Positions 21,900 through 56,892 of a DNA stretch of 64,000 nt are shown here, piece by piece. The DNA comes from Nitrospirales bacterium (GTDB taxonomy: Bacteria > Nitrospirota > Nitrospiria > Nitrospirales > UBA8639). Below the pieces are notes generated by a model, which made no database searches, was not told where the DNA came from, and worked only from the letters and a program-made list of their open reading frames with translations. Location of the stretch: positions 1-64,000 of the forward strand of contig JAJDBP010000007.1 of the NCBI GenBank assembly GCA_029261295.1, written 5' to 3'. The translations under genes and the position numbers were made by a program. Each line of letters begins with the position of its first letter. Positions within the stretch are counted from its first letter, which is position 1.

Positions 21900-22163
21900 G
21901 TCCATGATTCTCCCGAGTGGGCAGATGAAGATCCTTTCACTCATCCAAAGAACAGAAAAGGTTCGGTTGGATTTTTGTTCTTCACCTGAGGGTTCAAACC
22001 CCCCGCTTCACCCACTCCCTATTGCTCTTTCCGCCTAATTACCTTACGATATTTGGGATCTTTTAAATGTGCGTGCGGGCTTGATCATGCTTCATTCTTC
22101 CTAATTTTGACCTGGCAGTTGTCTTAGGTGCGGTTTCCATCTCCTTTAGCCATCCCCTTTGCA

Positions 22164-23384
22164 ATGAAGAAACGCATTGCTATTCAAGATTTGCGACCCG
22201 GTATGTATATCGCCGGGATGGACCAATCCTGGTTTCAAACGCCTTTTCTCCGCCATCGCTGGTTAGTCAAACGCAAAGATGAAATTACCTTATTACAAAG
22301 CTATGGAATTCAAGACGTCTTCATCGATACAGAAAAGGGGTGCGATGTGGCACCCGCCTCCAGTATTGAGGACCTCTCAAGCACCCAGAATGCTTCGACG
22401 GAATCCCCGCCTTCCGCCCCGCTTGACCTTGGGCCCAACCCTGAAGATATCGAATCGGCTCGACTCCTACGTGCGGAAGCCATTTCCACACTCGATGTTT
22501 TTTTTCGCCAAATGGAAGCTCCTTCCTCGCAACATCTCATGGAAGTGCGAGGAGTCGTCAGCACCCTGTTAGACGGCCTCTTAGATCACCAAGCGGCCAT
22601 GGTGTCCCTCATCCAAATGCGTCGTTTTGATGCCAATCTGGCCACACATGGAGTTGATACAGGTGTCTTGGCAATGGCCATTGGCCAAGCAAATGGGTGT
22701 GACCCGGCCCACCTTAAACTTCTGGGACTGGCCGCCATGGTCCACGATATTGGACAACTGCGGTTACCACTGAATCTTTTGCGAAAAATTGAACCCTATT
22801 CAGTACAGGATCACAAACTGGTCCAAGCCCATTGTGAGATTGGCGAGAGCATTCTCAATCAATTTCCCAATTTTCCCCAAGAATCGAAACACATGGTCCT
22901 CCAACATCATGAACGCCTAGATGGATCGGGATATCCTCATGGACTTGAGGGGAAAAATATTTCTGAACTGACCCAAATTTTGAGTATTGCGGATACCTAT
23001 GACGCGCAAATCAGTGGACGCTGCAGCCAACCACCTGTTCCTCCGGCCAGAGCCTTATCAGAATTATATCGGGGAGCCCTTGCTGGCCAGTACGCGATGA
23101 CGTTCGTACAGCAACTCATTCAACTTTTAGGGGTTTATCCTATTGGGTCGCTCGTCCGGCTTAATACGGGGGAAGAAGCTGTCGTCGTTTGGGTTCACAG
23201 CCATTCTCGTCTTACACCCACCATTAAATTGCTTAAAAATTCCTCAGGACAACTCTACGAAGAACAAGAAATTATTGATCTGTCGTTGCACACGAAAAAC
23301 GGGACAACCCGTTCAATTCAAGAATCAATTGATCCCACGGAAGCGGGGTGGGATATGACCAAGCTCCTGGATTCCTTATGGTAA
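22164..23384 (+). CDS. HD-GYP cyclic-di-GMP phosphodiesterase with DUF3391-like N-terminus
   Basis: A 406-residue paralogue of the protein at 9970. The start was set at the ATG before KKRIAIQDLRPGMYIAGMD by comparison with that paralogue; the frame is open back to 22128. The HD dyad is His194-Asp195 in MVHDIGQLRLP. The GYP signature is complete: HH at 248-249 and DGSGYP at 253-258. It should degrade cyclic di-GMP and is the more canonical of the two. It is followed 40 bases later by the PAS hybrid kinase on the same strand and may be cotranscribed with it, so the kinase could modulate cyclic-di-GMP output. Confidence 0.92.
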   Translation: MKKRIAIQDLRPGMYIAGMDQSWFQTPFLRHRWLVKRKDEITLLQSYGIQDVFIDTEKGCDVAPASSIEDLSSTQNASTESPPSAPLDLGPNPEDIESARLLRAEAISTLDVFFRQMEAPSSQHLMEVRGVVSTLLDGLLDHQAAMVSLIQMRRFDANLATHGVDTGVLAMAIGQANGCDPAHLKLLGLAAMVHDIGQLRLPLNLLRKIEPYSVQDHKLVQAHCEIGESILNQFPNFPQESKHMVLQHHERLDGSGYPHGLEGKNISELTQILSIADTYDAQISGRCSQPPVPPARALSELYRGALAGQYAMTFVQQLIQLLGVYPIGSLVRLNTGEEAVVVWVHSHSRLTPTIKLLKNSSGQLYEEQEIIDLSLHTKNGTTRSIQESIDPTEAGWDMTKLLDSLW

Positions 23385-35978: not shown

Positions 35979-36563
35979 CTAAAAAATGGCTTTGGTTGAC
36001 ATAATAAGGTTTGGACTCTGGTGACCAGGTCCACCTAAAAATGGACTCATGCCCCCAACAGGAGTAATTGGATTATGTTGATAATAGACTTTCACCACGG
36101 TGAATTGATCCACCCCTGGGCCATCAATAGGCGGCCCTTGCCATGTGAGATAGTTCCACAAATTATTAGGAAGATCGCATTGTCCCGCTTGAGTAGGAGC
36201 TTGAATTTGTGGGTCCGTTAAGGTCCCAATGGGTGTGACCGTACATTGAGGAGGCTGACCTAATCCGGTAGAGCCCACGATTTTCGCCAAAAATATGGAA
36301 TATTTTTCAGGATGTCCTTTGAGTGCTAAGGTGCCTTCTGTCGACTGCATGAGAGACAGGATATTCGCATCGGTCGTCAGCTCTCGTGAAGCAAGGCTCG
36401 CTCCCTCCCGAGCTAAGGATGTTACCGCGTTGCGTTCACTGAAAAGCACCCCATACTCCACAGTCGCAAAGGCTAAGAACATAAACAATAAAGAAGAAAC
36501 AGCGAATTCTACCGTCGCGCTGCCTTGCGCCGACCAAAGTAAAGACCGTCGAGATTGGTTCAT
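35979..36563 (-). CDS. tadE: TadE-like minor pseudopilin
   Basis: A 194-residue protein. The ATG at 36563 has AGGAGGG eight bases before it; the frame is open to 36596 without a site. A TadE-type N-terminus (GSATVEFAVSSLLFMFLAFA) holds the prepilin-like cleavage site and the conserved Glu, followed by an extracytoplasmic domain with several Cys and a Pro/Gly-rich end. TadE-like pseudopilins are processed by TadV and are needed for pilus formation. It follows another TadE-like gene after 35 bases. Confidence 0.85.
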   Translation of the reverse strand: MNQSRRSLLWSAQGSATVEFAVSSLLFMFLAFATVEYGVLFSERNAVTSLAREGASLASRELTTDANILSLMQSTEGTLALKGHPEKYSIFLAKIVGSTGLGQPPQCTVTPIGTLTDPQIQAPTQAGQCDLPNNLWNYLTWQGPPIDGPGVDQFTVVKVYYQHNPITPVGGMSPFLGGPGHQSPNLIMSTKAIF

Positions 36564-36598
36564 AAGTCGAGCCCTCCTCCTCACACCACGCATCATGG

Positions 36599-37123
36599 TT
36601 ATAATATAAAGTTTTCGTTTCGATATGTGGCTTGCGCGTTCATGATGACCGTACCCCCGCTACTAAAAAATCCTCCAACCAAATCCGTAAAAAAATGATG
36701 GGTATAGAGCACACGAACACGCATAAACGCCCCCTCGTCCCCCCCATTATTGTCTGCATCCACCACCCCAGGAGCCGTAGGATCGGCCCAGGTGACATTA
36801 TCAATGGGAAAAATCTTAATGTCAGTCGGATTAATGACGATGATCCCATTGGCTTTATCAAGAATGGCCTTTTTAATAGATTCTTGACGAGTCAACGTAG
36901 TCCCGCCATCAGTGAGAACAGCGCCAGTTGAACCTATTCGAACACCCTCACTGACAGCGGCATTCATCGTATGCTGATGAAGGAAGTAATATCCAAATTC
37001 GGCAACCCCAAAAATCATGAGCAAAAAAGGAAGTAGGGTAATCCCGACTTCAACTGCTGAGACACCAGAATCATCCCGGCAGATTCTTTTGAATATTTTA
37101 GTGAATGTGCGCCAACCGTTCAT
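36599..37123 (-). CDS. tadE: TadE-like minor pseudopilin
   Basis: A 174-residue protein with GGAGGG six bases before the ATG at 37123. The N-terminal segment DDSGVSAVEVGITLLPFLLM is the TadE-type prepilin signal with hydrophobic stem. The extracytoplasmic part includes VDADNNGGDEGAFMRVRVLY. It is second in a run of pseudopilin genes after the vWA TadG-like gene and most likely a structural or initiating subunit of the Flp pilus. Confidence 0.85.
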   Translation of the reverse strand: MNGWRTFTKIFKRICRDDSGVSAVEVGITLLPFLLMIFGVAEFGYYFLHQHTMNAAVSEGVRIGSTGAVLTDGGTTLTRQESIKKAILDKANGIIVINPTDIKIFPIDNVTWADPTAPGVVDADNNGGDEGAFMRVRVLYTHHFFTDLVGGFFSSGGTVIMNAQATYRNENFIL

Positions 37124-37203
37124 AAATAACCCTCCACATTTCGTGCCCGTGAAGAACAAGGCTCGGCTCTCTACAGTTCCATCATTCGAAATGCCACATC
37201 GTT

Positions 37204-38547
37204 CTAACTGATCAGGACAAGTTTGAGCCTATTGGCAATTTCTTGAAAAATTCCCTGAAGCATCGCAGGATTCGTCGCAAAATGTGCATGGTCTTTATCG
37301 GTGGCAAGGGCTTCCATGAACAACTGATCAGCACCTCCTCCTACGTCTAATCCGATGGTATAAATTTCAACACCAGCATCTTTTAAGGCCTGAGCATTTG
37401 CCAAGGCCTTGGCCTGAGCAACCCATCGGACGTAATTATCCAAGGGGGCATCCCCATTTCCACCATCAATATTACATTGCTCAACTCCCGCTGATACGGG
37501 TGGCACAGCCTGACTAAATCCATAGGTTGAGTCTGCGGCAATGTGCCATTTGACTGTCAGTCCCCCTGAACAAGCAGAAGTGCCTGAAGTTTTTCCATCT
37601 CCCGTATTTCTCATCCTATCAATAGCAGGAGAGGAATAATCTACGTTTTGAATGTCGTGTCTTTTTAGATCTCGAACAACATTGCCACCGTTGACGGACA
37701 CCTGGCCCACGCCATCATGCACGACCCCATTGTAAGTAAAATCCCCTCGAAAAGCCGTGGGCTCCCCATCTGAGAAAAAGACCACCACTTGCCGCGTCCG
37801 TTCATTTTTTGGAAGATGCATTTGTGGCGCGGACCAGGTAAGAGAGGTGAGAGCTTGGGCGAGGGCATCTTCCACATTGGTGCCTCCGTTATTGGGGGTC
37901 AACCCAGAGATCGCGGTATTAATTGGACTCACGTAATAATGATCAAACTGAAAATCCCTTTCTACGCCAGCCGCAAAATGAATGAGGGAAAATCTATGAT
38001 CTCGTTCAAACGCGGTAAAGTTATTCACAAAGTTTTGCGCGCCAGCAATCAGGTCATCAATGGGTGGGTTTGAAGTGGGCCGTCCCATGGAACCCGAAAT
38101 ATCCAAAACCAGAGCCACTTCGGCTTTTCGAAGTTTTGCCGACCCATTGGCACCCAAGCCAGTATGTGACGACCCCGTGTCGAAGACCGTCGTCAAATGA
38201 TTCACAGAGTTGACTGAGCCAGTGACGGTTACCAACCCCTCCACATCCACATTTCCAACAAAAGCTGGGGTATCCGTATCTAATAACCCAGGCGGAAAAT
38301 TGGCCGCAGCCACTTCAACGGCAAATGATTGTATATCCGCGGGATTAGGAAACATCGGATTGGACACGTTTTTAGCAGCCGCAAAAGCTGCGCCATCAAT
38401 CGCTTTCCCCAATTCTCCCTGAATGCTATACCACCGACCGATTTCAACCCCTAAGGCGGCGAAGGCCACCATCGAAAAGAGGATCACGGCAGACATGAGA
38501 AAATAGGCCCCTTTTTGGTCGACTAGAATGTCACGAATTGGTTTCAT
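37204..38547 (-). CDS. tadG: TadG-like protein with von Willebrand factor A domain
   Basis: A 447-residue protein. The ATG at 38547 has AAGG seven bases upstream. The N-terminal segment DQKGAYFLMSAVILFSMVAF is a TadG-type pseudopilin stem, followed by GVEIGRWYSIQGELGKAIDG. A von Willebrand A domain follows with a complete MIDAS start DISGSMG (Asp149) and later TNVEDAL and FFSDGEPT. Such domains bind divalent metal and mediate adhesion. TadG with a vWA domain is a candidate tip adhesin of the Flp pilus. It lies downstream of the TadG-like gene at 39908 behind a strong hairpin. Confidence 0.88.
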   Translation of the reverse strand: MKPIRDILVDQKGAYFLMSAVILFSMVAFAALGVEIGRWYSIQGELGKAIDGAAFAAAKNVSNPMFPNPADIQSFAVEVAAANFPPGLLDTDTPAFVGNVDVEGLVTVTGSVNSVNHLTTVFDTGSSHTGLGANGSAKLRKAEVALVLDISGSMGRPTSNPPIDDLIAGAQNFVNNFTAFERDHRFSLIHFAAGVERDFQFDHYYVSPINTAISGLTPNNGGTNVEDALAQALTSLTWSAPQMHLPKNERTRQVVVFFSDGEPTAFRGDFTYNGVVHDGVGQVSVNGGNVVRDLKRHDIQNVDYSSPAIDRMRNTGDGKTSGTSACSGGLTVKWHIAADSTYGFSQAVPPVSAGVEQCNIDGGNGDAPLDNYVRWVAQAKALANAQALKDAGVEIYTIGLDVGGGADQLFMEALATDKDHAHFATNPAMLQGIFQEIANRLKLVLIS

Positions 38548-38638
38548 AACAAGACCTTTCATGTAATTGAGCGGATGAGCTCACCATCACTGGAATCTCC
38601 CCCACAAACTTGAAGGAAAATTAACCTTCAAACGACCG

Positions 38639-38675
38639 AAGGCATGCTGAAACGGCGGCCGTTTCAGCATGCCTT
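38639..38675 (-). other. Perfect 17-bp-stem hairpin between two tadG-like genes
   Basis: Arm 38639-38655 (AAGGCATGCTGAAACGG) pairs perfectly with 38659-38675 across a 3-base loop. No T-run follows on either strand, so it is not a classical terminator. It lies about 65 bases past the stop of the TadG-like gene and 90 before the vWA TadG gene, where it could act as an RNA-processing or stabilising element. Confidence 0.85.
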
Positions 38676-38741: not shown

Positions 38742-39908
38742 TTAGCTCACTAAGCCTGGGATACTTCCCTTGGGTGATAAGCCACCTAACCCACTTCCTG
38801 GAGGTCCTGATGGAGCATCAGGAAGAATGGCATTACAATCCACCTTTGCATCAATAATTTTTTGCGACGCATTAATACCCGTCACTGTGGCTCGAGCAAA
38901 TCCCACAATCGTGGTCGCCCCAATTGGGCCCAAACAATCCGATGATTGGTATACAGGAATGGTCACTTCCCAATTACCACTGGCATCTTTTTTAGAATCA
39001 TATAAATTTTCCAAATTATTAAAGGCATTAGCCACTTGCCCATTTGTAAAATCGAATTGAGTTTGATAAGGGGTCACTTCAGGACTGGTATAATTATCTG
39101 CCGCGAGGCAATCAATCACTTCCCTTAACAATTTGGCGTTGGCACTTCCGCCACCGCCGCCACCGCCGCCACCGCCGCCACCGCCGCCAGCACAATGGGC
39201 AGGGTTATTTGGATTGGAACCTAGTTGAACCTCATCGTAGACATGCCATCCCGCACAGGCTATGGGATCATTAGATGGAGAGAACCGAATTGCGTCGTTA
39301 CATTGGCCTCCATTGGCAAACCATTGCTCGGAAATGCCAAATGGGGCAGTCATACCCCCAGGTGGCACACTTGAGGCCGGACCCAATGCCGCTGTGGCCG
39401 TGGCAGATAATCCCAGAGTATTGTTTCCAAAAATGGCAGCAAATATTGTAGTCAGTGGACCATTTGAGGTGGCATCTCTCCGCACACGAATGGTCGCGGA
39501 ATCAGGAGCTGTGAGAGTTGCAGCAACTGTTTCACTGGAAGGATTATAGGTTCCCACCGAAATGTCGTTTGAGTCTAACGCAATATTGGATTTTCCACCG
39601 GCATCATGAAGATTGGCTATAGAATTCGCGACGGTTGAAATGGAACCGCCCTCACTTCCAGAAAGAGTGACATCCGAAGTGGCCAAATTATTATTTGACG
39701 TGGCAATGTCCTGATACACGAGTCCTAATTTTCCCGCCGCTGCAAGTGCGGAAGCATCAGCAATATTTTGGAGTTCACTTCGCGTCACAAAAGCTCGACC
39801 TAGGTCAATGGTAATGGCCGCCATTCCTAAAATGGTCGAGAGCGAGATGGCAAAAGTCATCCCGGTCACACCTCGTTGATCTGCTAATAATGTCTTTAAT
39901 CGTTTCAT
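38742..39908 (-). CDS. tadG: TadG-like pseudopilin with polyglycine tract
   Basis: A 388-residue protein. The N-terminus (DQRGVTGMTFAISLSTILGM, then DLGRAFVTRSELQNIADASA) is the Flp-assembly TadG-like domain. The extracytoplasmic part has FGISEQWF and a run of 14 glycines at about 243-256, flanked by CAG and SANAK, then a Cys-containing domain. The ribosome-binding site GAGGAG lies just after a putative GEMM-I aptamer, so translation is probably under cyclic-di-GMP control. No vWA domain is present, unlike the next gene. Its role is likely structural or adhesive at the pilus. Confidence 0.8.
   Translation of the reverse strand: MKRLKTLLADQRGVTGMTFAISLSTILGMAAITIDLGRAFVTRSELQNIADASALAAAGKLGLVYQDIATSNNNLATSDVTLSGSEGGSISTVANSIANLHDAGGKSNIALDSNDISVGTYNPSSETVAATLTAPDSATIRVRRDATSNGPLTTIFAAIFGNNTLGLSATATAALGPASSVPPGGMTAPFGISEQWFANGGQCNDAIRFSPSNDPIACAGWHVYDEVQLGSNPNNPAHCAGGGGGGGGGGGGGGSANAKLLREVIDCLAADNYTSPEVTPYQTQFDFTNGQVANAFNNLENLYDSKKDASGNWEVTIPVYQSSDCLGPIGATTIVGFARATVTGINASQKIIDAKVDCNAILPDAPSGPPGSGLGGLSPKGSIPGLVS
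39147..39188 (-). repeat. 9-bp microsatellite encoding polyglycine
   Basis: Four full units of GGCGGCGGT plus GGCGGA, read on the minus strand, encode 14 consecutive glycines in the TadG-like protein. All units are multiples of three, so slippage would change the glycine number without shifting frame. Confidence 0.9.
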
Positions 39909-39925: not shown

Positions 39926-40014
39926 TTTCTTCGGTAGCCCGGCTATCAGAAAATCCTGACCCGTGGCTTTGCGTCCCCATTTCACAATGGGTTTGCCTTT
40001 ATCGGAAAGAGGAC
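39926..40014 (-). promoter_or_regulatory. GEMM-I (cyclic-di-GMP-I) riboswitch aptamer, TadG-like leader
   Basis: Read on the minus strand: GATAAAGGCAAACC, a P2 stem CCCATT/AATGGG capped by the GNRA loop GTGA, the invariant GACGCAAAGCC, a P3 arm TCAG/CTGA, then TAGCCGGGCTACCGAAG. These are the hallmarks of the GEMM-I class. Its 3' strand ends about ten bases before the GAGGAG ribosome-binding site of the TadG-like gene at 39908, so the control is probably at translation initiation. The base I align with the ligand-contacting G20 of the Vc2 aptamer is G, which favours cyclic di-GMP over 3',3'-cGAMP. Confidence 0.92.
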
Positions 40015-40083: not shown

Positions 40084-40527
40084 TCACGTTCCTTCCATTC
40101 TCATAATGGAAGTGGAGGTGAGTGTCCGGTTTTGACTTAATCCTGGAATAAGGGCACTCGCGACAAGAAAGGAAAAATTGTAATTCACCGCGACTTGTAA
40201 GTTGGTTGAAGTCCCCACGGCAATGCGGTTGATCGCCACTGTGGCTTTGGTTGAATCTGCTAATTGGCTTCCATCAATCACCGTGTTGACCTGGGTGGTA
40301 ATTTGCGGATCTGTCACAGGAACGGTTTTCAATTTGATGCCAACCCGCGCCCCTTCACGAACGGCATTATTCAGGACTTCTTTCGTATACAACATACGTC
40401 CAAAATCGATCATGCCGAACACCAAAGCCAGGAGAATAGGGAGGATCAACGCAAACTCCACAGCGGTTGAGCCTCGCTCGTTTCGATAATTCGTCGCCTT
40501 TTTCACCGGTTGTTTTCGACATGTCAT
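40084..40527 (-). CDS. tadE: TadE-like minor pseudopilin
   Basis: A 147-residue protein. The ATG at 40527 has GAGG nine bases upstream; the frame is open to 40581. The N-terminal NERGSTAVEFALILPILLAL is a textbook TadE prepilin stem with cleavage after Gly and Glu five residues later. The rest is a short extracytoplasmic domain. It follows the two Flp prepilin genes and ends 70 bases before the TadG-like riboswitch. Confidence 0.9.
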   Translation of the reverse strand: MTCRKQPVKKATNYRNERGSTAVEFALILPILLALVFGMIDFGRMLYTKEVLNNAVREGARVGIKLKTVPVTDPQITTQVNTVIDGSQLADSTKATVAINRIAVGTSTNLQVAVNYNFSFLVASALIPGLSQNRTLTSTSIMRMEGT

Positions 40528-40611: not shown

Positions 40612-40785
40612 TTAAGGCAGTGCAGTGTCTACTGTGTTATAGAGGCCCACGATCTTTGGGGATAATCCCGCCACGGTTGATATAATCGCTCCAGCAATGA
40701 GAGCAGCAAGCAATCCATATTCAATCGCTGTCGCACCTTCTTCATCCTCGATCAAAATCGCAATGCATTGTATGGTATTTTTCAT
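40612..40785 (-). CDS. flp: Flp/Fap family prepilin
   Basis: A 57-residue prepilin. The Flp signature EEGATAIEYGLLAALIAG places TadV cleavage after Gly17. The mature pilin is about 40 residues, typical for Flp. The start at 40785 has AGGAG about ten bases upstream. It is a paralogue of the prepilin just upstream and differs mainly in the C-terminal tail (VGLYNTVDTALP). Tandem flp genes are common in tad loci. Confidence 0.92.
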   Translation of the reverse strand: MKNTIQCIAILIEDEEGATAIEYGLLAALIAGAIISTVAGLSPKIVGLYNTVDTALP

Positions 40786-40856: not shown

Positions 40857-40899
40857 CCGGGGGCTCCTCCCGGCCTACATAACCAGAAAAAACCCCCGG
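40857..40899 (-). terminator. Possible attenuator hairpin between the two flp genes
   Basis: A perfect 7-bp inverted repeat, CCGGGGG at 40893-40899 and CCCCCGG at 40857-40863 on the minus strand, encloses about 29 bases and is followed by TTTCTTT. It lies 20 bases past the first flp stop and could lower read-through into downstream genes. Confidence 0.45.
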
Positions 40900-40919: not shown

Positions 40920-41084
40920 TTAGGGAAGATTGGTGTTCACGGTGGTGAAGGCCGTGTTCAATTTAATACCAATCTGACCAACCACAACAATGATGACGGC
41001 GGCGATTAAAGCTGCTAACAAACCGTACTCAATAGCGGTGGCTCCTTCTTCGTCATTCAAGAAACTCATGAGTTGATTCACCAT
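40920..41084 (-). CDS. flp: Flp/Fap family prepilin (first gene of the tad locus)
   Basis: A 54-residue prepilin with NDEEGATAIEYGLLAALIAA; cleavage by TadV is expected after Gly14, giving a 40-residue mature pilin with the conserved Glu5 and Tyr6. The ATG at 41084 has AAGGAG seven bases before it. It is the first gene after a putative GEMM-I riboswitch and is probably the major pilin. The C-terminal tail ends FTTVNTNLP. Confidence 0.93.
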   Translation of the reverse strand: MVNQLMSFLNDEEGATAIEYGLLAALIAAVIIVVVGQIGIKLNTAFTTVNTNLP

Positions 41085-41104: not shown

Positions 41105-41152
41105 GAATAAAAATTGAAAAACGCACAGTCAGTATGCCCGCGTGCCCTGACT
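41105..41152 (-). terminator. Possible expression-platform terminator of the flp leader
   Basis: Downstream of the aptamer, on the minus strand, AGTCAG and CTGACT form a 6-bp stem, while GCAC and GTGC offer an alternative overlapping stem; both are followed by GTTTTTC and a second T-run. The two pairings are mutually exclusive, as expected for a switching platform, but this is by eye only. Confidence 0.4.
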
Positions 41153-41175
41153 CGTACGCTGCCTCTTAAACCATG

Positions 41176-41268
41176 TTTCCTTCGGCAACCCGGCAATCAA
41201 GGCCCAGCCTTGACCCGTGGCTTTGCGCCCACGCCTTCCGACGTGTTCGCCTTTATCGGGAAGAGGCA
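41176..41268 (-). promoter_or_regulatory. GEMM-I (cyclic-di-GMP-I) riboswitch aptamer, flp leader
   Basis: On the minus strand: GATAAAGGCGAAC, a P2 stem CACGTC/GGCGTG with GNRA loop GGAA, GCGCAAAGCC, a 7-bp P3 stem TCAAGGC/GCCTTGA, then TTGCCGGGTTGCCGAAGG. Stems differ in sequence from the other aptamer but keep pairing, which supports the structure. Two conserved adenines are G here (GGCGAAC for GGCAAAC, and GGCGCAAAG for GACGCAAAG). It lies about 90 bases upstream of the first flp start, with a possible terminator between. Confidence 0.88.
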
Positions 41269-41278
41269 CCCGATCCAA

Positions 41279-41284
41279 ACTATA
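41279..41284 (-). promoter_or_regulatory. Possible -10 element of the tad locus promoter
   Basis: TATAGT on the minus strand would start transcription about five bases before the flp aptamer, which fits. No good -35 hexamer lies at the proper distance, so an activator or another sigma factor may be involved. Confidence 0.35.
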
Positions 41285-41747
41285 GTTCTTGGTGATTTGG
41301 TCATGTTCATAGACCCACACCATACTTCCATGTCGCTTTCTTTGAATTCTGCGTTGCATGACCTATTATCGACTCGGCCTCAAAAAACTTGCTCAACTAT
41401 TTTTTACGATATTCACACTATTGTTGGCCGTTTCTTTCGCTTGGGGCATAGTATTCTCCTCGCCACTTTTTTAGTCCTTAAAAAATATCATTTCTTCTTC
41501 TACGGCTCATTTGTGAGCACCAAGAAGTGGTCACTCTTCCTTAAGACAAAAGTCCTTATAACCGAAACCAGTTGTACGCTAAATTCATTTACCGAAAATT
41601 AATTACGCGACTGCTAGGGGATTCCCTAAAACCTCAAAAACATGACCAAATGGTACATTTTCTATTCCTGACTTATGACGTATTCCAGGTTACATCCATT
41701 TTCAACACCCCATTGACCTCCTTCACCTATGCAGAGAGCTTTCACAA
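41285..41747. other. Divergent intergenic region between the tad locus and the glycan region
   Basis: About 460 bases with no supported gene. It must hold the upstream control region of the flp leader on the minus strand and the promoter of the GT2 gene on the plus strand. Short frames in it lack ribosome-binding sites and similarity. Confidence 0.4.
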
Positions 41748-42845: not shown

Positions 42846-44705
42846 TCAACTTGCGCTTTTTCGAACCTGAAAGAGGCGAAAGGACTCCTCTAATTGATCC
42901 TGAAGAGGAATCTCTCTCAACCATTTTGGTGGGACGGGTTGTAGTAGAGCCTCATAAAATGTTGATTCTCCAGAATCAGCTCGATAGACAGTTGACTCCA
43001 AACCCAGATTTGGACAAATAACAATGAAGTCAATTTTCCGATGATGAATAAGATCTTGGGCTTGGCCAAGGTCTTTTGCTTTCATAATCGCGAGCATATC
43101 CCTTAGACCTTCTACATTTCGATGCATGGGAGTGCCAATAATTTGGTAAGAAGTCCGATAGAGTAATTCTGGGCCAAAGTCCTTAAAGGCTAATATTGTT
43201 TGAGCAGGCTGATCCTGCGGGTTGATGGCCGTTAAATATTCTGCAAGAGGCTTGACGGGACAATTCCCCCCTAATGTTGTTGGCCTTGCTGTCGGTTCGT
43301 CGATGGCCATGACTGTTCCTACCGTGACGGGCCAAAACAATAAAACCAAGGCAAAGACTAATGACAAGGCTTCTCCCCTCCTACTTTCCCAGCGAGTTTC
43401 CACCCATCTCAAAGCTCTTCGAACCAATTCGACATATGGAATTAACAACATGATACTCGCATACGGTGCCCAGCGAGATTCATACAGGGTCAATGGAATA
43501 AAGATACCCGCGCCTATGAACAGCAAAAGACATTGATACTTTCGCCATAACGTGTTCTCTTGACTGAAGCTCCACACCAAAAATGGAAGCGCAAGCATAC
43601 CTATCCCTACACCCACCATCGCATCTCCACCGACTAACGGTTGCGTCTCGGCCACATGATCCCAGACTAACTGTCGAATGGCAGGATCCATATCGACAAG
43701 TGGTCCATGGAAAAAACCAGGGAATACATACCATTGCATGAATGCCGCTAAAATCGACCCGACTCCAATGATCGCCACTCTACTTGCGGGAGTAGACAGG
43801 AAGGACGTTTTCTTTTCTATTAAAAAAATCCCCATCCATACGACGAAAATTAGGCCAAGGACCAATTCATGTGGAAGAGAAATTCGATCATATTCAATGA
43901 GAGTCCAATCCTCACCAATTCTTTCCACCCCAAAGAAAAGGGTAGAAAATACAAGGAGACTCCCCATTATTGTCAGAATGGGTGCAATCTTTGCCTTTCC
44001 CTCCCAAATCCACACCAAAGTATAGGCGGCAAGAAAAATTCCAATAGGCACTAAAAATTCTACGCTCACCCATAATCCCAATGCCCCTAGACACCCAATG
44101 AAAATGAGGTGACGAATGTTTCGAGGATTTTCCAGCCCCCAATTCAACCCAACTAAAAACCAAGAGAAAATGGCTAGAATGAGACTATGATGATCAGGGC
44201 GGCCAACCATAAAATATCCGGTAAGAATAGGCTGTAATTGGAACAAAATGGCGAAGAGGATTATCCCAAGTCGATCTACTTGTTGCCGCATTAGACAAAA
44301 AAGCCCCACAAAAGCAACCATATGCAATAGCGGACTAATCATGACACCCCACAGATGTAGTGCCGTTGGAAAAGGCAGGACTAGCGAGAACGCCGCGGCA
44401 CCAGCCAACAGCAAGAAGTCCATGGGTTTTGTCCAATGAATACTTTCTCCATAAGGAGCATTACTTCGTGGATATATGGAATTGTTCCATGTTCCTTGAT
44501 CATAAATAAATTGCACACGATTGAGCCGAGTATATCCATCAGTTCCTAACAACTCCCCTTCCATGATATTCATTGGGCCCCAAAAGGCATAAAGAAGATG
44601 AATAATGCAAAAAACTCCAAAAATGATTAGGCTGAGAGATTGTGTTTCTCCTTCGAGTAATTGCCCCTGAGAACAAGAGTCTGTTCGAATCAATTTGGTC
44701 TCCAC
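42846..44705 (-). CDS. Polytopic membrane glycosyltransferase, STT3/PglB-like
   Basis: A 619-residue protein with about a dozen membrane segments and a soluble C-terminal region of about 150 residues. The first periplasmic loop has LLGTDGYTRLNRVQFIYDQG, resembling the metal-binding DxxxR region of GT-C enzymes, and GRPDHHSLILAI resembles the DHH motif of STT3/PglB oligosaccharyltransferases. This suggests transfer of a lipid-linked sugar or glycan at the outer face of the inner membrane. The WWDYG-type motif was not found, so true oligosaccharyltransferase activity is unproven. Neighbouring GT2 and GT39-like genes fit a glycosylation locus. Confidence 0.7.
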   Translation of the reverse strand: METKLIRTDSCSQGQLLEGETQSLSLIIFGVFCIIHLLYAFWGPMNIMEGELLGTDGYTRLNRVQFIYDQGTWNNSIYPRSNAPYGESIHWTKPMDFLLLAGAAAFSLVLPFPTALHLWGVMISPLLHMVAFVGLFCLMRQQVDRLGIILFAILFQLQPILTGYFMVGRPDHHSLILAIFSWFLVGLNWGLENPRNIRHLIFIGCLGALGLWVSVEFLVPIGIFLAAYTLVWIWEGKAKIAPILTIMGSLLVFSTLFFGVERIGEDWTLIEYDRISLPHELVLGLIFVVWMGIFLIEKKTSFLSTPASRVAIIGVGSILAAFMQWYVFPGFFHGPLVDMDPAIRQLVWDHVAETQPLVGGDAMVGVGIGMLALPFLVWSFSQENTLWRKYQCLLLFIGAGIFIPLTLYESRWAPYASIMLLIPYVELVRRALRWVETRWESRRGEALSLVFALVLLFWPVTVGTVMAIDEPTARPTTLGGNCPVKPLAEYLTAINPQDQPAQTILAFKDFGPELLYRTSYQIIGTPMHRNVEGLRDMLAIMKAKDLGQAQDLIHHRKIDFIVICPNLGLESTVYRADSGESTFYEALLQPVPPKWLREIPLQDQLEESFRLFQVRKSAS

Positions 44706-45194: not shown

Positions 45195-46715
45195 ATGGAG
45201 CAACAGAAAGTTCTCATTTTTATTGTCAGCTATAATGCAGATACAACCATCACCAGCGTCCTATCTAGAATTCCGTCTGGACTTTTCAAAAATCCAAATG
45301 CTCAGGTGGAAGTTCTCATCATCGACGACGGCTCATCAGACCATACGGTGTTTGAGTGCCAAACATGGCGCCAGCAACATCCTGAAACTCCTTTGACCAT
45401 CCTCGTTAATCCTCAAAATTTGGGATATGGTGGCAATCAAAAGCTTGGCTATCAGTATGCCATTGACCGAAGCTTCGACGTGGTGTGTTTGGTGCATGGG
45501 GATGGACAATATGCACCAGAGGAGCTCACAAAATTACTTCAACCTCTTCTCAATGGGGAATGTGAGGCCGTTTTCGGTTCAAGGATGATGGAGGCGGGGG
45601 CAGCTCTTAAGGGCGGAATGCCCGTCTATAAATACTATGGCAACAAGGTTCTTTCCTGGCTACAAAATAAAATCGTAGGCACCAACCTCTCGGAATATCA
45701 TAGCGGCTATCGCCTGTATTCCATTCAAGCTCTCAAAAAAATTCCCTTTGGATATAATTCCAATGGGTTTGATTTCGATACAGATATCATCATCCAACTA
45801 CATAATGCTGGTTTTCGTATTCAGGAAATTCCGATTCCTACCTTCTATGGTGATGAGATTTGTAATGTAAACGGTATTCCTTATGCCTTCACCATCTTAT
45901 CCTCTTGCTTGGCAAGCCGCATGCAAAAATTGGGATTGTTTTACAATCGAAAATTTGATCTTCAAATTAACAATGAACATTACCAATCAAAATTTGATTT
46001 CTTTTCATCGCACTCGCTCGCACTTAACGCGGTTAAATCTGATGAACGGCTACTTGTCCTTGGCTGCGGTTCTGCTGCGCTCGTGGCGCCCTTTGCCAAA
46101 AAAGGCTGTCGCCTTAGTGTCCTCGATAAGTACATTTCTCTTGAACTGGAAGCCCTGAGCGAGCATTGTGCTGCGGTGAACCTTAACGAATTTGACTTTA
46201 TGGATCTTCCCGAAGGCCCCTCTCACGACACAGTCTTGGCATTAGATATTATTGAACATCTCCTCTCTCCAGAGTCTTTTCTTGAAAGCCTGCGACAAGC
46301 CGCTTGCCTGCGGGGAAGCCGCCTTATTCTGACGACACCCAATGTCACGTTTCTTCCCTTACGCATGATGTTTCTCTTTGGGTTTTTTAACTATGGCAAG
46401 AGAGGGATCCTTGATCGAACCCACACGAGGCTCTTTACGTTTGATTCATTGGAGCGGATTCTTCGACAAGCTGGGTTCAATATTACTGAATTACGTGGGA
46501 TTCCCGCCCCCTTCCCTCTTGCCTTTGGACAACAACACTGGGCAGGACAATTCCTTTTAAAAATTAATCTATTCATGACCAAGATCTGGCGTGGTGCTTT
46601 TTCGTATCAAATTTACTGTGAAGCCACTCCCTCGCCGACAGTCGACGAATTGCTTGAGCAGACGATGGAACATTCGCGCAAAACCGTCGCTTCCCCTGAA
46701 ACGGTTCAATGTTGA
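45195..46715 (+). CDS. Glycosyltransferase family 2 / SAM methyltransferase fusion
   Basis: A 506-residue two-domain protein. Residues 1-240 are a GT2 enzyme (VLIFIVSYNADTTITSVL, IDDGSSDHT, HGDGQYAPEEL, GYRLYSIQAL). Residues about 265-440 are a class I methyltransferase with LLVLGCGSAALVAPFAKKG as the SAM-binding loop, LALDIIEHLLSPE as motif IV and a LILTTPN strand. The ATG at 45195 has GGAG six bases upstream; another ATG lies at 45177. The methyltransferase could cap or modify the sugar the GT2 half transfers. Its stop overlaps the start of the GT39-like gene. Confidence 0.85.
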   Translation: MEQQKVLIFIVSYNADTTITSVLSRIPSGLFKNPNAQVEVLIIDDGSSDHTVFECQTWRQQHPETPLTILVNPQNLGYGGNQKLGYQYAIDRSFDVVCLVHGDGQYAPEELTKLLQPLLNGECEAVFGSRMMEAGAALKGGMPVYKYYGNKVLSWLQNKIVGTNLSEYHSGYRLYSIQALKKIPFGYNSNGFDFDTDIIIQLHNAGFRIQEIPIPTFYGDEICNVNGIPYAFTILSSCLASRMQKLGLFYNRKFDLQINNEHYQSKFDFFSSHSLALNAVKSDERLLVLGCGSAALVAPFAKKGCRLSVLDKYISLELEALSEHCAAVNLNEFDFMDLPEGPSHDTVLALDIIEHLLSPESFLESLRQAACLRGSRLILTTPNVTFLPLRMMFLFGFFNYGKRGILDRTHTRLFTFDSLERILRQAGFNITELRGIPAPFPLAFGQQHWAGQFLLKINLFMTKIWRGAFSYQIYCEATPSPTVDELLEQTMEHSRKTVASPETVQC

Positions 46716-48535
46716 CGCGAACGGTCCCAGAAAAATCACTCACCTGGATTACAATTTTTGTCTCCGTGACACTCCTCAATGCCGGCCTCCTGTGGTGGTT
46801 TCATGACCGCACCTGGTGGGAACCGGATGATGGCCAACTCGCACACGTCGCCGAACGCCTCTTACAGGGCGAAGTCCTTCACCGAGATATCCAGGATGTT
46901 CGACCGGGGTACGTCAACTTCATCAACGCCGCCGCCCTCTATCTTTTTGGGCCCAGCCTACTGAGTTTGCGCTACCCCTTAGCCCTGATTGCCCTCGCCC
47001 AATCTGCCCTTTTATTTTTCCTCTTCCGTTCCCAGGGAGCCATGCTGGCCGGCGCCCTTTCCCTGGGTTCCGTCACCCTCGGGGTGTTGCACTACATTAA
47101 TCCCAACCACCATTGGTACGCCTTATTCTTTACCATTGTGCTCATCTGTCATTTGATTTGGACGCCCCGAACAAGCCGTTGGTATGTACCGCTCGCCGGC
47201 CTCCTGATTGTCACGATCGGATTACTACGCCACCTGACCGGAGCCTTTGTCGGGATGGGCACACTCGCCTTTCTGCTTTTTGAGGAATCGAACCAGGCTA
47301 AGCAGTCGTTTGCCTGGCGCGAGCACTCGCTGGCTCGGCTCTTCTGTGGGGCAATGCTGGCCCTCCTCTCCCTCTACCTCTGGCGGGCAACGGACTTCTT
47401 AGCTTTTCTCATGTTTGGGCTGTGGCCAGTGGGCTTACTAGCCTGGCAACTCACAGCCACGACGGTATCCAACACCCGCGCTATGAGCATCGTGGGAGGC
47501 CTCTGTCTCGGGATGGGGATTGGGGCCCTGCCTCTGCTTGCCTATCACCTGGTAAATGGCTCCCTCATGGCGATGATCGATGACAACTTCCTACGCGCAC
47601 TCGATGTTCTCAATTGGGATTACGGAAAAAAAGTAAAATACTGGATGTTGCCCTTGGGCGGCGCGGTGGAATTTGGAAACAACCCGGGATTACCCACACT
47701 ACTCAATGCTCTTTACTTTCTGGCCGTACCTCTCTTCGCTACGCTAAATGGGTTCATTTTGTTTCAGGTCGTCCGTAGGAGAACCGTACACATTTCGCTG
47801 GCCTTACCTATTCTGGCAGCATTCTACGGTTTAGTCGCGCTCTTCCTGCAAATCCCGATCTATCTCCACTGGACTTCCATCCTATCAATAGCCGGATCTC
47901 TATGGATGCTTGTCGAGTTGAAGCCGAGCTGGAAGTCATCAATGTGCGCGATGCTAGTAACTCTGTCCATGGTCAGTATCGCTTTCCAGGCTGGCGTTCC
48001 TATACGCAGCTCCATCATGGAACTCGTGAGCACGGAAAAGCCTAAACTTTTTGATAGTCGCGGGCAGTTGCCCAAAGTAGATTTGTGGATTAGGGGAAAA
48101 TCACTGGAAGCCTACAAGAAGGTCGTCCATTTTATAGAAGAGGAAACGAACCCAGGAGACTACCTTTTTGCCGTTCCCAACAATGCTGAGCTCTATTTCA
48201 TGACGGAAAGGCGCAATCCCTTTCGATTCTTCAGTACCGACCATGGTGTTCTCAATGAACGGGAAGTTCAACACGTCATCCAACGGTTGGAGGAACTTCG
48301 TCCTCGCATCATTACATTCGCACCTGTTTCTCAAAGAAACACTCCTCACTCGTTGGCCATCATGGACCACGTTCGAGAACACTCAGAATTGCTCTCGCAG
48401 GATTCGTTTTTCGAAGTCTATCTTTATGATGCCAAAAGCAAACCACCAACAGAATACGTAGGAAAACCCAAACGCCGGGATGTAGAAATTGGCAGATATA
48501 TGGAAGAAGAGGTAAACAGGATACCCAGAATTTAG
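46709..48535 (+). CDS. GT39/ArnT-like membrane glycosyltransferase, copy 1
   Basis: A 608-residue polytopic protein with 10-12 membrane segments and a soluble C-terminal part. The first periplasmic loop carries PDDGQLAHVAERLLQGEVLH and DIQDVRPGYVNFIN, the acidic and arginine motifs of the PMT/ArnT GT-C superfamily. It would transfer a sugar from a polyprenyl-phosphate donor to an unknown acceptor. The ATG overlaps the stop of the GT2-methyltransferase gene by seven bases. The next gene is a collinear duplicate exactly 2007 bases away. Confidence 0.82.
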   Translation: MLTRTVPEKSLTWITIFVSVTLLNAGLLWWFHDRTWWEPDDGQLAHVAERLLQGEVLHRDIQDVRPGYVNFINAAALYLFGPSLLSLRYPLALIALAQSALLFFLFRSQGAMLAGALSLGSVTLGVLHYINPNHHWYALFFTIVLICHLIWTPRTSRWYVPLAGLLIVTIGLLRHLTGAFVGMGTLAFLLFEESNQAKQSFAWREHSLARLFCGAMLALLSLYLWRATDFLAFLMFGLWPVGLLAWQLTATTVSNTRAMSIVGGLCLGMGIGALPLLAYHLVNGSLMAMIDDNFLRALDVLNWDYGKKVKYWMLPLGGAVEFGNNPGLPTLLNALYFLAVPLFATLNGFILFQVVRRRTVHISLALPILAAFYGLVALFLQIPIYLHWTSILSIAGSLWMLVELKPSWKSSMCAMLVTLSMVSIAFQAGVPIRSSIMELVSTEKPKLFDSRGQLPKVDLWIRGKSLEAYKKVVHFIEEETNPGDYLFAVPNNAELYFMTERRNPFRFFSTDHGVLNEREVQHVIQRLEELRPRIITFAPVSQRNTPHSLAIMDHVREHSELLSQDSFFEVYLYDAKSKPPTEYVGKPKRRDVEIGRYMEEEVNRIPRI

Positions 48536-48656: not shown

Positions 48657-48722
48657 ATGTTCGAGCAGTCGATGGAACATTCAGACAAAATCGTCGCGTC
48701 CACTGGAACGGTTCAATGTTAA
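48657..48722 (+). pseudogene. 3'-end remnant of the GT2-methyltransferase gene
   Basis: A 21-codon frame (FEQSMEHSDKIVASTGTVQC) closely matches the C-terminal end of the GT2-methyltransferase protein (LEQTMEHSRKTVASPETVQC). It is carried ahead of GT39 copy 2 as a by-product of the tandem duplication and overlaps that gene's start by seven bases, as in the original. Confidence 0.85.
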
Positions 48723-50482
48723 CGCGAACGGCACCAGAGAAATCACTCACCTGGATTGCCATTTTTGTTTCCGTGACGCTCTTCAATGCCGGCCTCCTGT
48801 GGTGGTTTCATGACCGCACCTGGTGGGGGCCGGATGATGGTCAACTCGCTCACGTCGCCGAACGCCTCTTACAAGGTGAAGTCCTGCACCGCGATATCCA
48901 GGACGTCCGACCAGGGTACGTCAACTTTATCAACGCCGCCGCCCTCTATCTTTTTGGACCCAGCCTACTGAGTTTGCGCTACCCCTTAGCCCTGATTGCT
49001 CTGGCCCAATCTGCCTTCATATTTTTCCTCTTCCGTTCCCATGGGGCCATGCTGGCCGGCGCCCTTTCTCTGGGTTCCGTCACCCTCGGGGTGTTGCACT
49101 ACATTAATCCCAACCACCATTGGTACGCCTTATTCTTTACCATTCTGCTCATCTGTCATTTGATCTGGACGCCACGAACGAGCCGCTGGTATGTACCGGT
49201 TGCCGGCCTCCTGATTGTCACGATCGGATTACTACGCCACCTAACTGGAGCCTTCGTCGGGATGGGCACACTCGCCTTTCTCCTCCTTGAGGAATCGAAC
49301 CAACATACGGGGTTGTTTGCCTGGCGGGAGCATTGGCTGGCACGACTCCTCTGTGGGTTGATGCTGACTCTCCTCTCCCTGTACCTCTGGCGGTCAACGG
49401 ACTTTTTAGCGTTTCTCATGTTTGGACTCTGGCCGGTGGGCTTATTGGCCTGGCAACTTACGGCCACGACGGTATCCAACACCCGGGCTCTGAGCATCGT
49501 GGGAGATCTCTGTCTGGGGATGGGAATTGGGGCTCTGCCTCTGCTTGCCTATCACCTGGCAAATGGCTCCCTCGGGGCAATGATCGATGACAACTTCCTG
49601 CGCGCGCTCGATATGCTTAATTGGAGCGCCATCAAGAAATTCAATTACTGGATGTTACCCTTTTCCGGAGCAATTGAATTCAGCCAGAACCCTGGAATAT
49701 TTAGCCTTATGAATGCTTTGTATTTTCTGGCTTTGCCACTCTTAGGCGCGTTAAATGGGGTCATCTTGTTTCAGGTCGTCCGTAGGAGAACCCTACACAT
49801 TTCGTTAGCCTTACCTATCCTGGCGGCATTTTATAGTTTGGTGTCGCTCTTCCTTCAAATCCCTGCCTATCTATATTTAACAGCCATTTTACCCATTACC
49901 GGATCTCTGTGGATGCTTGTCGAGTTGAAGCCGAGCTGGAAGCCATCAATGTGCGCGGTGCTCATGGGTCTGTCAGTCGTCAGTATCGCATTCCAGGCTG
50001 GTGAGCCAAGTAGCCGCTCTATTATGGATCACATTCGTGCCGGAAAGGCTACCCTGTTAGATAGCCGCGGTCAGTTATCCAAAGTAGATTTGTGGATCAA
50101 TGAAAATTCGCTGGAAGCCTACAAGAAGGTGAGCCATCTTATTGAAAAGGAGACAAACCCAGGAGACTACCTTTTTGCCATTCCCAACAATGCTGAACTC
50201 TATTTTATGACGGAAAGGCGCAATCCCTTTCGATTCTTCAGTACCGACCATGGTGTTCTCAATGAACGGGAAGTCCAACACGTCATCCAACGATTGGAGG
50301 AACTTCGTCCTCGCATCATTACTTTTTCACCGAAGGATACCCGAAACACCCCCCACTCATTGGCCATCATGGACCACGTTCGGGAATACTCAGAATTGCT
50401 CTCACAGGATTCGTTTTTTGAAGTCTATCTTTATGGTGAGAAGAATGGAACAACGAAGAATATTGCTTCATTGACTAGGTAG
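48716..50482 (+). CDS. GT39/ArnT-like membrane glycosyltransferase, copy 2
   Basis: A 588-residue paralogue of the preceding gene, with the same PDDGQLAHVAERLLQGEVLH loop and membrane topology. The middle periplasmic region, which in GT-C enzymes helps select the acceptor, is the most diverged part (WSAIKKFNYWMLPFSGAIEF here, WDYGKKVKYWMLPLGGAVEF in copy 1). The C-terminal tail is shorter by about 20 residues. It may act on a different acceptor or sugar than copy 1. Its start overlaps the remnant of the methyltransferase end. Confidence 0.82.
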   Translation: MLTRTAPEKSLTWIAIFVSVTLFNAGLLWWFHDRTWWGPDDGQLAHVAERLLQGEVLHRDIQDVRPGYVNFINAAALYLFGPSLLSLRYPLALIALAQSAFIFFLFRSHGAMLAGALSLGSVTLGVLHYINPNHHWYALFFTILLICHLIWTPRTSRWYVPVAGLLIVTIGLLRHLTGAFVGMGTLAFLLLEESNQHTGLFAWREHWLARLLCGLMLTLLSLYLWRSTDFLAFLMFGLWPVGLLAWQLTATTVSNTRALSIVGDLCLGMGIGALPLLAYHLANGSLGAMIDDNFLRALDMLNWSAIKKFNYWMLPFSGAIEFSQNPGIFSLMNALYFLALPLLGALNGVILFQVVRRRTLHISLALPILAAFYSLVSLFLQIPAYLYLTAILPITGSLWMLVELKPSWKPSMCAVLMGLSVVSIAFQAGEPSSRSIMDHIRAGKATLLDSRGQLSKVDLWINENSLEAYKKVSHLIEKETNPGDYLFAIPNNAELYFMTERRNPFRFFSTDHGVLNEREVQHVIQRLEELRPRIITFSPKDTRNTPHSLAIMDHVREYSELLSQDSFFEVYLYGEKNGTTKNIASLTR

Positions 50483-54885: not shown

Positions 54886-56892
54886 TTACTCCATGTTCCA
54901 TTCAAGTGTGGCGAAACACAAACGCTGTCCACCAAAATCTTTGGCGTGATACATGGCTTGATCCGCCATAGCCAAAAGACGCCGTGGATCGGTTGAGTCT
55001 TTAGGGGAGACCGCAATCCCAATACTGGTTTGTACGGGAATATCTTGCCCATTCACATGAATAGGGGCAGACAAACAATCCAGAATTTTCTTGGCCACCT
55101 GCCGAATATCTTGAATTCGATCAAGCCCTTGCAAAATAATCGTAAACTCATCTCCACTTAATCGAGAAACGGTATCCGTCGTCCGAACACAGGTCAAAAG
55201 ACGTTTGGCCACCATCCGTAACAAACGATCACCTATTGGATGGCCATATTGATCATTAATAGATTTGAAATTATCCAAATCCAAAAAAAGAAGGGCCAGC
55301 AAGGTCCCATCTCGTCTAGCCTGAGCCAAAGCCAATTGAAGCCGATCTTCAAATAAGATCCGATTGGGCAAATCGGTTAAGCAATCGTGATAGGCTTGAT
55401 GCTTCATTTGCATTTCTGCCACCGCGCGGGCCGTGACATCATGAAGGATCACGACAAAATGTGTGACTTTACCTTGATCATCCAATAAGGGCGTCAACAC
55501 CTGTTCAAAGACAAGTGATTCTCCCTGACTCCCCTTTTCCATCACTTCAGTTTTTACATAATCAATCTCCGGGCGCACCGAATCGATCGTCGGCCAAGCT
55601 TCTTGTAGCTGTGCATGGGGAAATGAACGCAACGGTACACCCATTGCCTGCTGAGAAGTCACACCCAATATTTTCGAATAGGCTTGATTGACCCATTCCA
55701 CACGACCATGAGGATCTGTGACACACACCGCGTCATGAACAGATCCAACCACAGCGCTATGAAGACGCAATTGCTCAATTTCCCTTCCTCGAGCCATCAA
55801 ATTTTCAATAAGCTGTCCTACACCTTCTAACCATTCTCGTATGGAAGAGGGGAATCCTTTGGATTCCTTGGAACACACCACCAGCAAGCCTGATAGATCG
55901 CCTTGTCGCCAGGGCAAGGAATAGGCTTCTCGTAAATTGAAACTTGACGGGAACCAAGAAAACTCGCCTGTATGAGGAGTCTCGCTCGAAACGGATGGCC
56001 CTTCAGATGCCACACACGCTTGAGCCATCATCTCTTGTCGAGCGATCGAAGCCCACCAAATGGGACCTTGCTCATCCCAATCTAGTTCAGAGCCCAATGA
56101 TTGGGCCCGCAATTGAATACGTTGATTATCCTGCACCGTGGCAATCCACACGAAGGGATAGCCAAATGTCTGGACAAGCCCTTCACAGATATATTTCAAA
56201 CACTCATCAAGACCTTGTCCATTCAATAGATTCGTTTCAAGAGTCTGGAAGAGTTGAGTAAAAGGGTGAGATGAAAGGGTGGCAAGGTGGGGACGGAAGT
56301 CCCAATGCCAAGAGGTTAAATTTCCGGATTGGTCCAACAGGGGAGTAACCACGCACTTCATTTTCATGAGGGCCTTTGGCAGGAGTTTCATGCTCACAAC
56401 CCAAGTCATCCCCTTTTGGGAAAGTTGCGTTTTGCTCAATTGCTGCCGAATCCACAGCCATTCCTCATAGGGAATCCATTCAGCGAGAGACATTTTCCCA
56501 ATATGAGCCACATCCAACCCCAAGGCTTCAACGGCGGCTTCATTGGCCATCTGAATAACTCCATCACGAGAAATCATGAGATGATTGGGGACTTCCGGAG
56601 AAGGAACAGAGTTCGGAGGAGAGGGCAATATCGAAGAAGGAAGGATTTCTCTATTGAGGAAATTTTGGTCAGTTGATTCAGCAAGAATATGTTGCAAACG
56701 ATTGGCTAAACGCGTAAGTGCCTGGCTTAACTCTTCGTCTTCCGAAGATTCTACACCTGAGGATTCAGGATGAAGATCTCGCAATGATTGTTGTAATAAT
56801 TGCTGAAGTTGATGAAATCTTGCCACGGATCCAATCACCTCGGCATGAGGAACGGAAAGAGGACTTATTGAATGTGAAGTCTGAAGAGACAA
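54886..56892 (-). CDS. PAS-GGDEF diguanylate cyclase
   Basis: A 668-residue protein with an N-terminal helical/PAS region (MISRDGVIQMANEAAVEAL), a GAF-like middle part, a PAS domain around 380-480 (AVCVTDPHGRVEWVNQAYSK) and a C-terminal GGDEF domain. The active-site loop is SGDEF at 579-583, a first-Gly-to-Ser form still found in active enzymes. RTTD five residues upstream is a classic RxxD product-inhibition site. It should make cyclic di-GMP from GTP and supply the ligand for the two tad riboswitches. The only usable start in frame is a TTG at 56892 with AAGGA nine bases before it. Confidence 0.9.
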   Translation of the reverse strand: MSLQTSHSISPLSVPHAEVIGSVARFHQLQQLLQQSLRDLHPESSGVESSEDEELSQALTRLANRLQHILAESTDQNFLNREILPSSILPSPPNSVPSPEVPNHLMISRDGVIQMANEAAVEALGLDVAHIGKMSLAEWIPYEEWLWIRQQLSKTQLSQKGMTWVVSMKLLPKALMKMKCVVTPLLDQSGNLTSWHWDFRPHLATLSSHPFTQLFQTLETNLLNGQGLDECLKYICEGLVQTFGYPFVWIATVQDNQRIQLRAQSLGSELDWDEQGPIWWASIARQEMMAQACVASEGPSVSSETPHTGEFSWFPSSFNLREAYSLPWRQGDLSGLLVVCSKESKGFPSSIREWLEGVGQLIENLMARGREIEQLRLHSAVVGSVHDAVCVTDPHGRVEWVNQAYSKILGVTSQQAMGVPLRSFPHAQLQEAWPTIDSVRPEIDYVKTEVMEKGSQGESLVFEQVLTPLLDDQGKVTHFVVILHDVTARAVAEMQMKHQAYHDCLTDLPNRILFEDRLQLALAQARRDGTLLALLFLDLDNFKSINDQYGHPIGDRLLRMVAKRLLTCVRTTDTVSRLSGDEFTIILQGLDRIQDIRQVAKKILDCLSAPIHVNGQDIPVQTSIGIAVSPKDSTDPRRLLAMADQAMYHAKDFGGQRLCFATLEWNME

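Follow-up and report, generated by a model that had tools for sequence, protein, structure and literature searches.

The c-di-GMP-I aptamer inside the tad locus

Why should a riboswitch stand in the middle of a tad locus, directly before the gene of a single minor pilin? The question is raised by a 64,000-nucleotide stretch of the genome of an uncultured Nitrospirales bacterium (contig JAJDBP010000007.1, positions 1-64,000; hereafter the window), in which a preliminary description had reported a GEMM-I riboswitch on the minus strand at 39926-40014 and had read it as separate translational control of one TadG-like pilus component. The covariance-model search proposed there bears the element out. 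RF01051 (c-di-GMP-I) matches at 39930-40007 (-) with 75.2 bits (gathering threshold 35; model positions 1-87 of 87), and in a cmscan of the window the variant model RF03167 (c-di-GMP-I-GGC) matches at 39929-40006 (-) with 74.4 bits (gathering threshold 59; E = 8.6e-16; full length, 1-80). The alignment contains each of the parts described earlier: the three-helix core with the invariant GACGCAAAGCC, a P2 capped by a GUGA (GNRA) loop, P3, and the closing CGGGCUACCGAAG. Every residue and pair of the core is preserved, and the score is the highest among the seven GEMM-I copies of the genome. The element is thus a complete GEMM-I/c-di-GMP-I aptamer.

The aptamer lies between tadE1 (40084-40527, -; PF07811, 73.3 bits) and tadG1 (38742-39908, -; 388 aa), directly 5′ of the latter. 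The Shine-Dalgarno (SD) sequence GAGGAG of tadG1 occupies 39922-39917 (-), six bases 3′ of the aptamer, close enough to the "about ten" first given, and the ATG is at 39908. With a Tad N-terminal domain (PF13400, 39.7 bits), a Tad_C match (PF09977, 22.7 bits) and its place within a tad locus, tadG1 is a TadG-type minor pilin, in line with the first reading of the gene. A lengthy stretch of Gly codons (GGCGGTGGC repeats, near 39150-39190) lies in the middle of its coding sequence.

One statement of the preliminary description does not hold: the riboswitch was said to sit on an internal gene rather than on the first. The first tad gene, flp1 (40920-41084, -; PF04964, 67.5 bits), carries a GEMM-I of its own at 41180-41260 (-), with 66.7 bits for RF03167 and 67.2 bits for RF01051, so that the internal aptamer is an addition and not a replacement.

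On the minus strand the locus begins with a sigma28-like promoter, a leader ORF overlapping the first GEMM, flp1, a hairpin, flp2 (40612-40785, -; PF04964), tadE1, the internal GEMM, tadG1, and a second hairpin. There follow a VWA-domain TadG-type minor pilin (37204-38562, -; PF00092, 65.9 bits), tadE2 (36599-37159, -; PF07811) and tadE3 (35979-36596, -; PF07811), which together form a second tip module, and then genes for a prepilin peptidase, RcpC, the secretin, a small product, a TadZ-like protein, TadA, two TadB/C-type proteins, and a TPR protein. The hairpin after flp1 (40857-40899, -) is strong and terminator-like, a 19-pair stem followed by TTTCTTT; the one after tadG1 (38639-38675, -) has 17 pairs and no clear U tract. 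Three long ORFs beside the locus (588-619 aa; 42846-44705, -; 46709-48535, +; 48716-50482, +) have no Pfam match.

The leader of flp1

The flp1 transcript has a sigma28-like promoter, GCAAGTTT-N11-GTCGATAA, at 41366-41392 (-), with 13 of 16 consensus bases, a spacing of 11, and a position common to most loci of the genus. Promoters were scored against a consensus of the TAAAGTTT-N11-GCCGATAA type, which we take to represent sigma28. A similar motif appears in published work (PMC3627812).

About six bases past the sigma28-like -10 box begins a conserved leader ORF of 76 aa (41129-41359, -), which runs in frame through the flp1 aptamer. An upstream ORF of the same length is found in 13 genomes of the genus, and across these its dN/dS is 0.43, against ~1.4 in the other frames. 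The flp aptamers are also enclosed by an outer helix of eight pairs, which keeps a single register across the leaders (15 of 15) and shows compensatory changes. Because the best 8-mer helix anywhere reaches eight of eight pairs in ~31% of shuffled flanks, the argument for this helix rests on its fixed register and the compensation. A corresponding leader ORF through the tadG1 aptamer was considered and rejected: although open as far as an ATGA that overlaps the start codon, that frame lacks a convincing SD-backed start of its own.

A predicted switch at the tadG1 Shine-Dalgarno sequence

Folding calculations point to a tract directly 5′ of P1, GUCCUC (40009-40014, -), as a putative anti-SD. 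When the aptamer is enforced, UCCUC (40013-40009) pairs with GAGGA of the SD with P = 0.98-1.0. In the free fold the GUCCUC tract pairs instead with GGGGAC (39973-39978, -), on the 3′ side of P2 and J2/3 in the aptamer core, with P = 0.83. Over several window lengths the unpaired probability of the SD is 0.04-0.21 in the enforced state and 0.26-0.62 in the free state, values matched by 9%-16% of flank shuffles (9% of shuffled 5′ flanks hide the SD equally well and 16% switch as strongly). Changing UCCUC to AGGAG raises the unpaired probability to 0.80 with the aptamer enforced. The calculations are of the nearest-neighbor kind, which leaves out tertiary structure and cotranscriptional order, and the tadG1 platform is a single sequence without a homolog, which precludes a covariation test.

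These results suggest the following scheme. Without c-di-GMP, the GUCCUC tract just upstream of P1 would pair with the core of the aptamer, the SD of tadG1 being mostly open; with c-di-GMP, P1 would form, the tract would pair with the SD, and translation of tadG1 would be lowered. On balance we lean, if only slightly, toward an adhesin-type c-di-GMP-I translational OFF riboswitch on tadG1, within a tad operon whose first gene is itself led by a c-di-GMP-I aptamer. Since 9% and 16% of the flank shuffles reach the native values, the OFF sign is a best guess rather than a finding, and the folding is suggestive only. A tract able to pair with the SD is present in most adhesin leaders too. In the flp and adhesin leaders themselves, switching of the SD is predicted to be slight or absent, so the folding does not reveal a general rule; in several of these leaders an SD or start codon had been misassigned automatically, and those cases carry no weight.

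Two parts of the preliminary description bear on this scheme. Translational control is the best-supported mode, given that formation of the aptamer is predicted to bring the SD into pairing with the 5′ flank and that the stretch from tadE1 to the aptamer holds no recognizable sigma28 or sigma70 promoter for tadG1. Separate control of one pilus component is plausible, but it is a deduction from the fold, the hairpins after flp1 and tadG1, and the second tip module downstream.

The sign may also be the reverse. In a functional ON switch the ligand would raise tadG1 expression, for example by a kinetic route in which the aptamer folds ahead of SD synthesis and keeps out a different structure that would block the SD. 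Closely similar aptamers are known with both signs (PMC9262584), and c-di-GMP usually favors adhesion, an example being pilA1 of C. difficile with its class II riboswitch, an ON switch (PMC6366702). Equilibrium folding gives the opposite sign at every window length tried, and we consider the ON switch unlikely.

Comparison with relatives and origin of the internal aptamer

The placement before flp1 is widespread. In 21 genomes of the genus, with 90 GEMM-I hits analyzed, 16 copies head a tad locus 5′ of flp1, and no tad leader located in the genus lacks one. In the wider family, ten genomes with a Tad-domain match carry GEMM-I copies, and each of the nine regions read around tad-linked hits has one or two copies upstream of flp genes. 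A GEMM-I leader on flp1 is a conserved trait of the genus and, by less direct evidence, of the family. In three of the family genomes (L202, L203, and L204) flp1 is preceded by two GEMM-I copies ~450-480 bases apart, and a small ORF begins after the first of them.

The internal copy is found in the present genome only. A class-wide search with tadG1 (270 genomes), combined with Rfam scanning of 30 of its loci and also of regions from the family and the order, found no GEMM directly upstream of any tadG1 relative; in the 30 class-wide loci the GEMMs are at the flp position only. Used as a query against the genome contigs, tadG1 found no relative; the secretin, used likewise, gave 17 contigs of Nitrospirota, by which the genome is placed among the Nitrospirales. 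The internal tad GEMM-I is therefore unique among the relatives searched, which are mostly metagenome-assembled and fragmented genomes, so that absence means absence on the contigs at hand. The gap between tadE1 and tadG1 is 175 bp here, against 10-53 bp in the five other genus loci in which both genes are readable, and those shorter gaps contain no GEMM. A search of the open-access literature found no published account of the arrangement, which is no proof of absence.

The tip genes of the locus are also combined in an unusual way. Intact readable loci of the genus have either tadE1-tadG1 (some with a second tadG) or VWA-tadE2-tadE3; both occur together only here. Since flp1, the peptidase, and RcpC of the present locus are closest to the VWA type, the tadE1-GEMM-tadG1 segment looks like an added module.

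Where did its aptamer come from? In a tree of 36 aptamers the tadG1 copy falls among those in the leaders of fibronectin-III (fn3) adhesin genes, with 96% identity to the nearest, its precise position there being poorly supported (81/72). Origin as a copy of the flp aptamer was considered and rejected, since the tadG1 aptamer stands outside a group, supported at 100/100, that unites the 16 flp aptamers. By its position in the tree, the aptamer is of the adhesin-leader type and not of the flp type. Past the aptamer, tadG1 lacks the adhesin platform.

This history could also mean that the aptamer is a recent arrival that binds its ligand with little regulatory effect, tadG1 being translated mainly from the tad mRNA. 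Its occurrence in one genome, its adhesin-leader kinship, the missing platform, and the shuffled flanks that often do as well would all fit. The intact core, with the best score in the genome, and the workable distance to the SD argue the other way, and we regard an idle aptamer as rather improbable.

The ligand

The tadG1 aptamer has G20 and A47 in its pocket, the c-di-GMP form and not the cGAMP form; the A20 that marks the cGAMP type (GEMM-Ib) is replaced by G. The positions follow Vc2 numbering; when this numbering was checked on a Vc2 sequence, the third pocket base (C92) came out one position off. The match to RF03167 is full length and above the gathering threshold, yet the consensus of that model has G at the A47 position and both window copies have A (GACGCGAAG vs. 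GACGCAAAG), while RF01051 gives slightly more bits. On the assumption that the "GGC" of c-di-GMP-I-GGC denotes this G, we rejected assignment of the tadG1 aptamer to the variant despite its score, and set the RF03167 label aside as a guide to the ligand.

The genome has seven GGDEF domains. The motif is readable in six, and all six have Asp at the position that we take to be the Hypr selectivity site. In the window there are two HD-GYP-type genes (HD_5 + DUF3391) and one PAS-GGDEF gene (9970-11253, +; 22128-23384, +; 54886-56892, -). Taken together, the sequence evidence makes c-di-GMP the likely ligand. A variant for 3′,3′-cGAMP or another ligand, to which the better E-value of RF03167 in the window scan and the A at position 20 of another GEMM of the genome (C29:59885) might point, is very improbable because the tadG1 copy has G20 (with A47, and the higher bit score for RF01051) and the six readable GGDEF domains carry Asp where the selectivity residue is expected.

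The A20-type copy just mentioned (C29:59885-59976) lies 5′ of a Kelch-repeat protein gene, and A20-type GEMMs are present in other members of the genus as well.

Known systems and a wider c-di-GMP pattern

The GEMM-I class is well known, as is control of pili by c-di-GMP riboswitches, which act on an entire operon or on the major pilin. A close parallel to the tadG1 element is the Vc2 RNA (RF01051) of V. cholerae, for which translational OFF switching dependent on P1 has been described (PMC9262584). The two share a full aptamer, the pocket residues, and a site just 5′ of the SD; the present copy differs in standing in mid tad operon, before a minor-pilin gene, with another copy on the operon's first gene. 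Cdi-2-4 on pilA1 of C. difficile likewise places a type IV pilus operon under a c-di-GMP RNA (PMC6366702), in that case a class II aptamer, with transcriptional ON control, before the major pilin at the operon head.

The genome carries further copies. A third GEMM-I lies ~400 bases past the end of the window, 5′ of a subtilase gene that also starts outside it. Across the genus, sigma28-like promoters scoring 12-14 of 16 stand ~100 bases (about 100-104) upstream of most flp and adhesin GEMMs, and in three flp leaders the promoter is ~186 bases upstream. In the present genome the gene for a FliA/WhiG-family sigma factor (TIGR02479, 204.9 bits) itself has a GEMM leader (C22:109901), and most genomes of the genus have a gene of fliA length at the same distance after a GEMM. 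Control of flp/tad genes by FliA (sigma28) is known from Bdellovibrio, where a c-di-GMP riboswitch RNA (merRNA) occurs in the same cells (PMC5430801, PMC3627812). That RNA has no downstream gene, whereas the riboswitches of the present genome stand before flp, adhesin, and fliA genes.

For the pilus, the arrangement suggests that one alternative tip is regulated apart from the fiber. The Kil pilus of Myxococcus has interchangeable Tips, with several TadE/F/G-type minor-pilin modules per pilus (PMC12075869); we found no mention of a riboswitch there, and here two modules share one locus, one of them with a riboswitch of its own. By analogy with those Tips, and if the OFF sign is right, high c-di-GMP might leave less of the TadG1 tip subunit, while the downstream VWA-type tip genes would not be stopped. 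A still bolder extension, which we think improbable, is that the second messenger chooses the tip: the tadG1 riboswitch would exchange a TadG1-type tip (low c-di-GMP) for a VWA-type tip (high c-di-GMP), and a separate riboswitch and sigma28-like promoter would set the amount of fiber.

Here a single lineage appears to have equipped one tip subunit with a switch of its own, by way of an adhesin-leader aptamer and in a locus with two tip modules. Interchangeable Tad tips under messenger control thereby become an idea that a simple reporter could test. More broadly, riboswitches on fliA, and likewise on the flp and adhesin genes that lie behind sigma28-like promoters, outline what may be a c-di-GMP regulon in the Nitrospirales.
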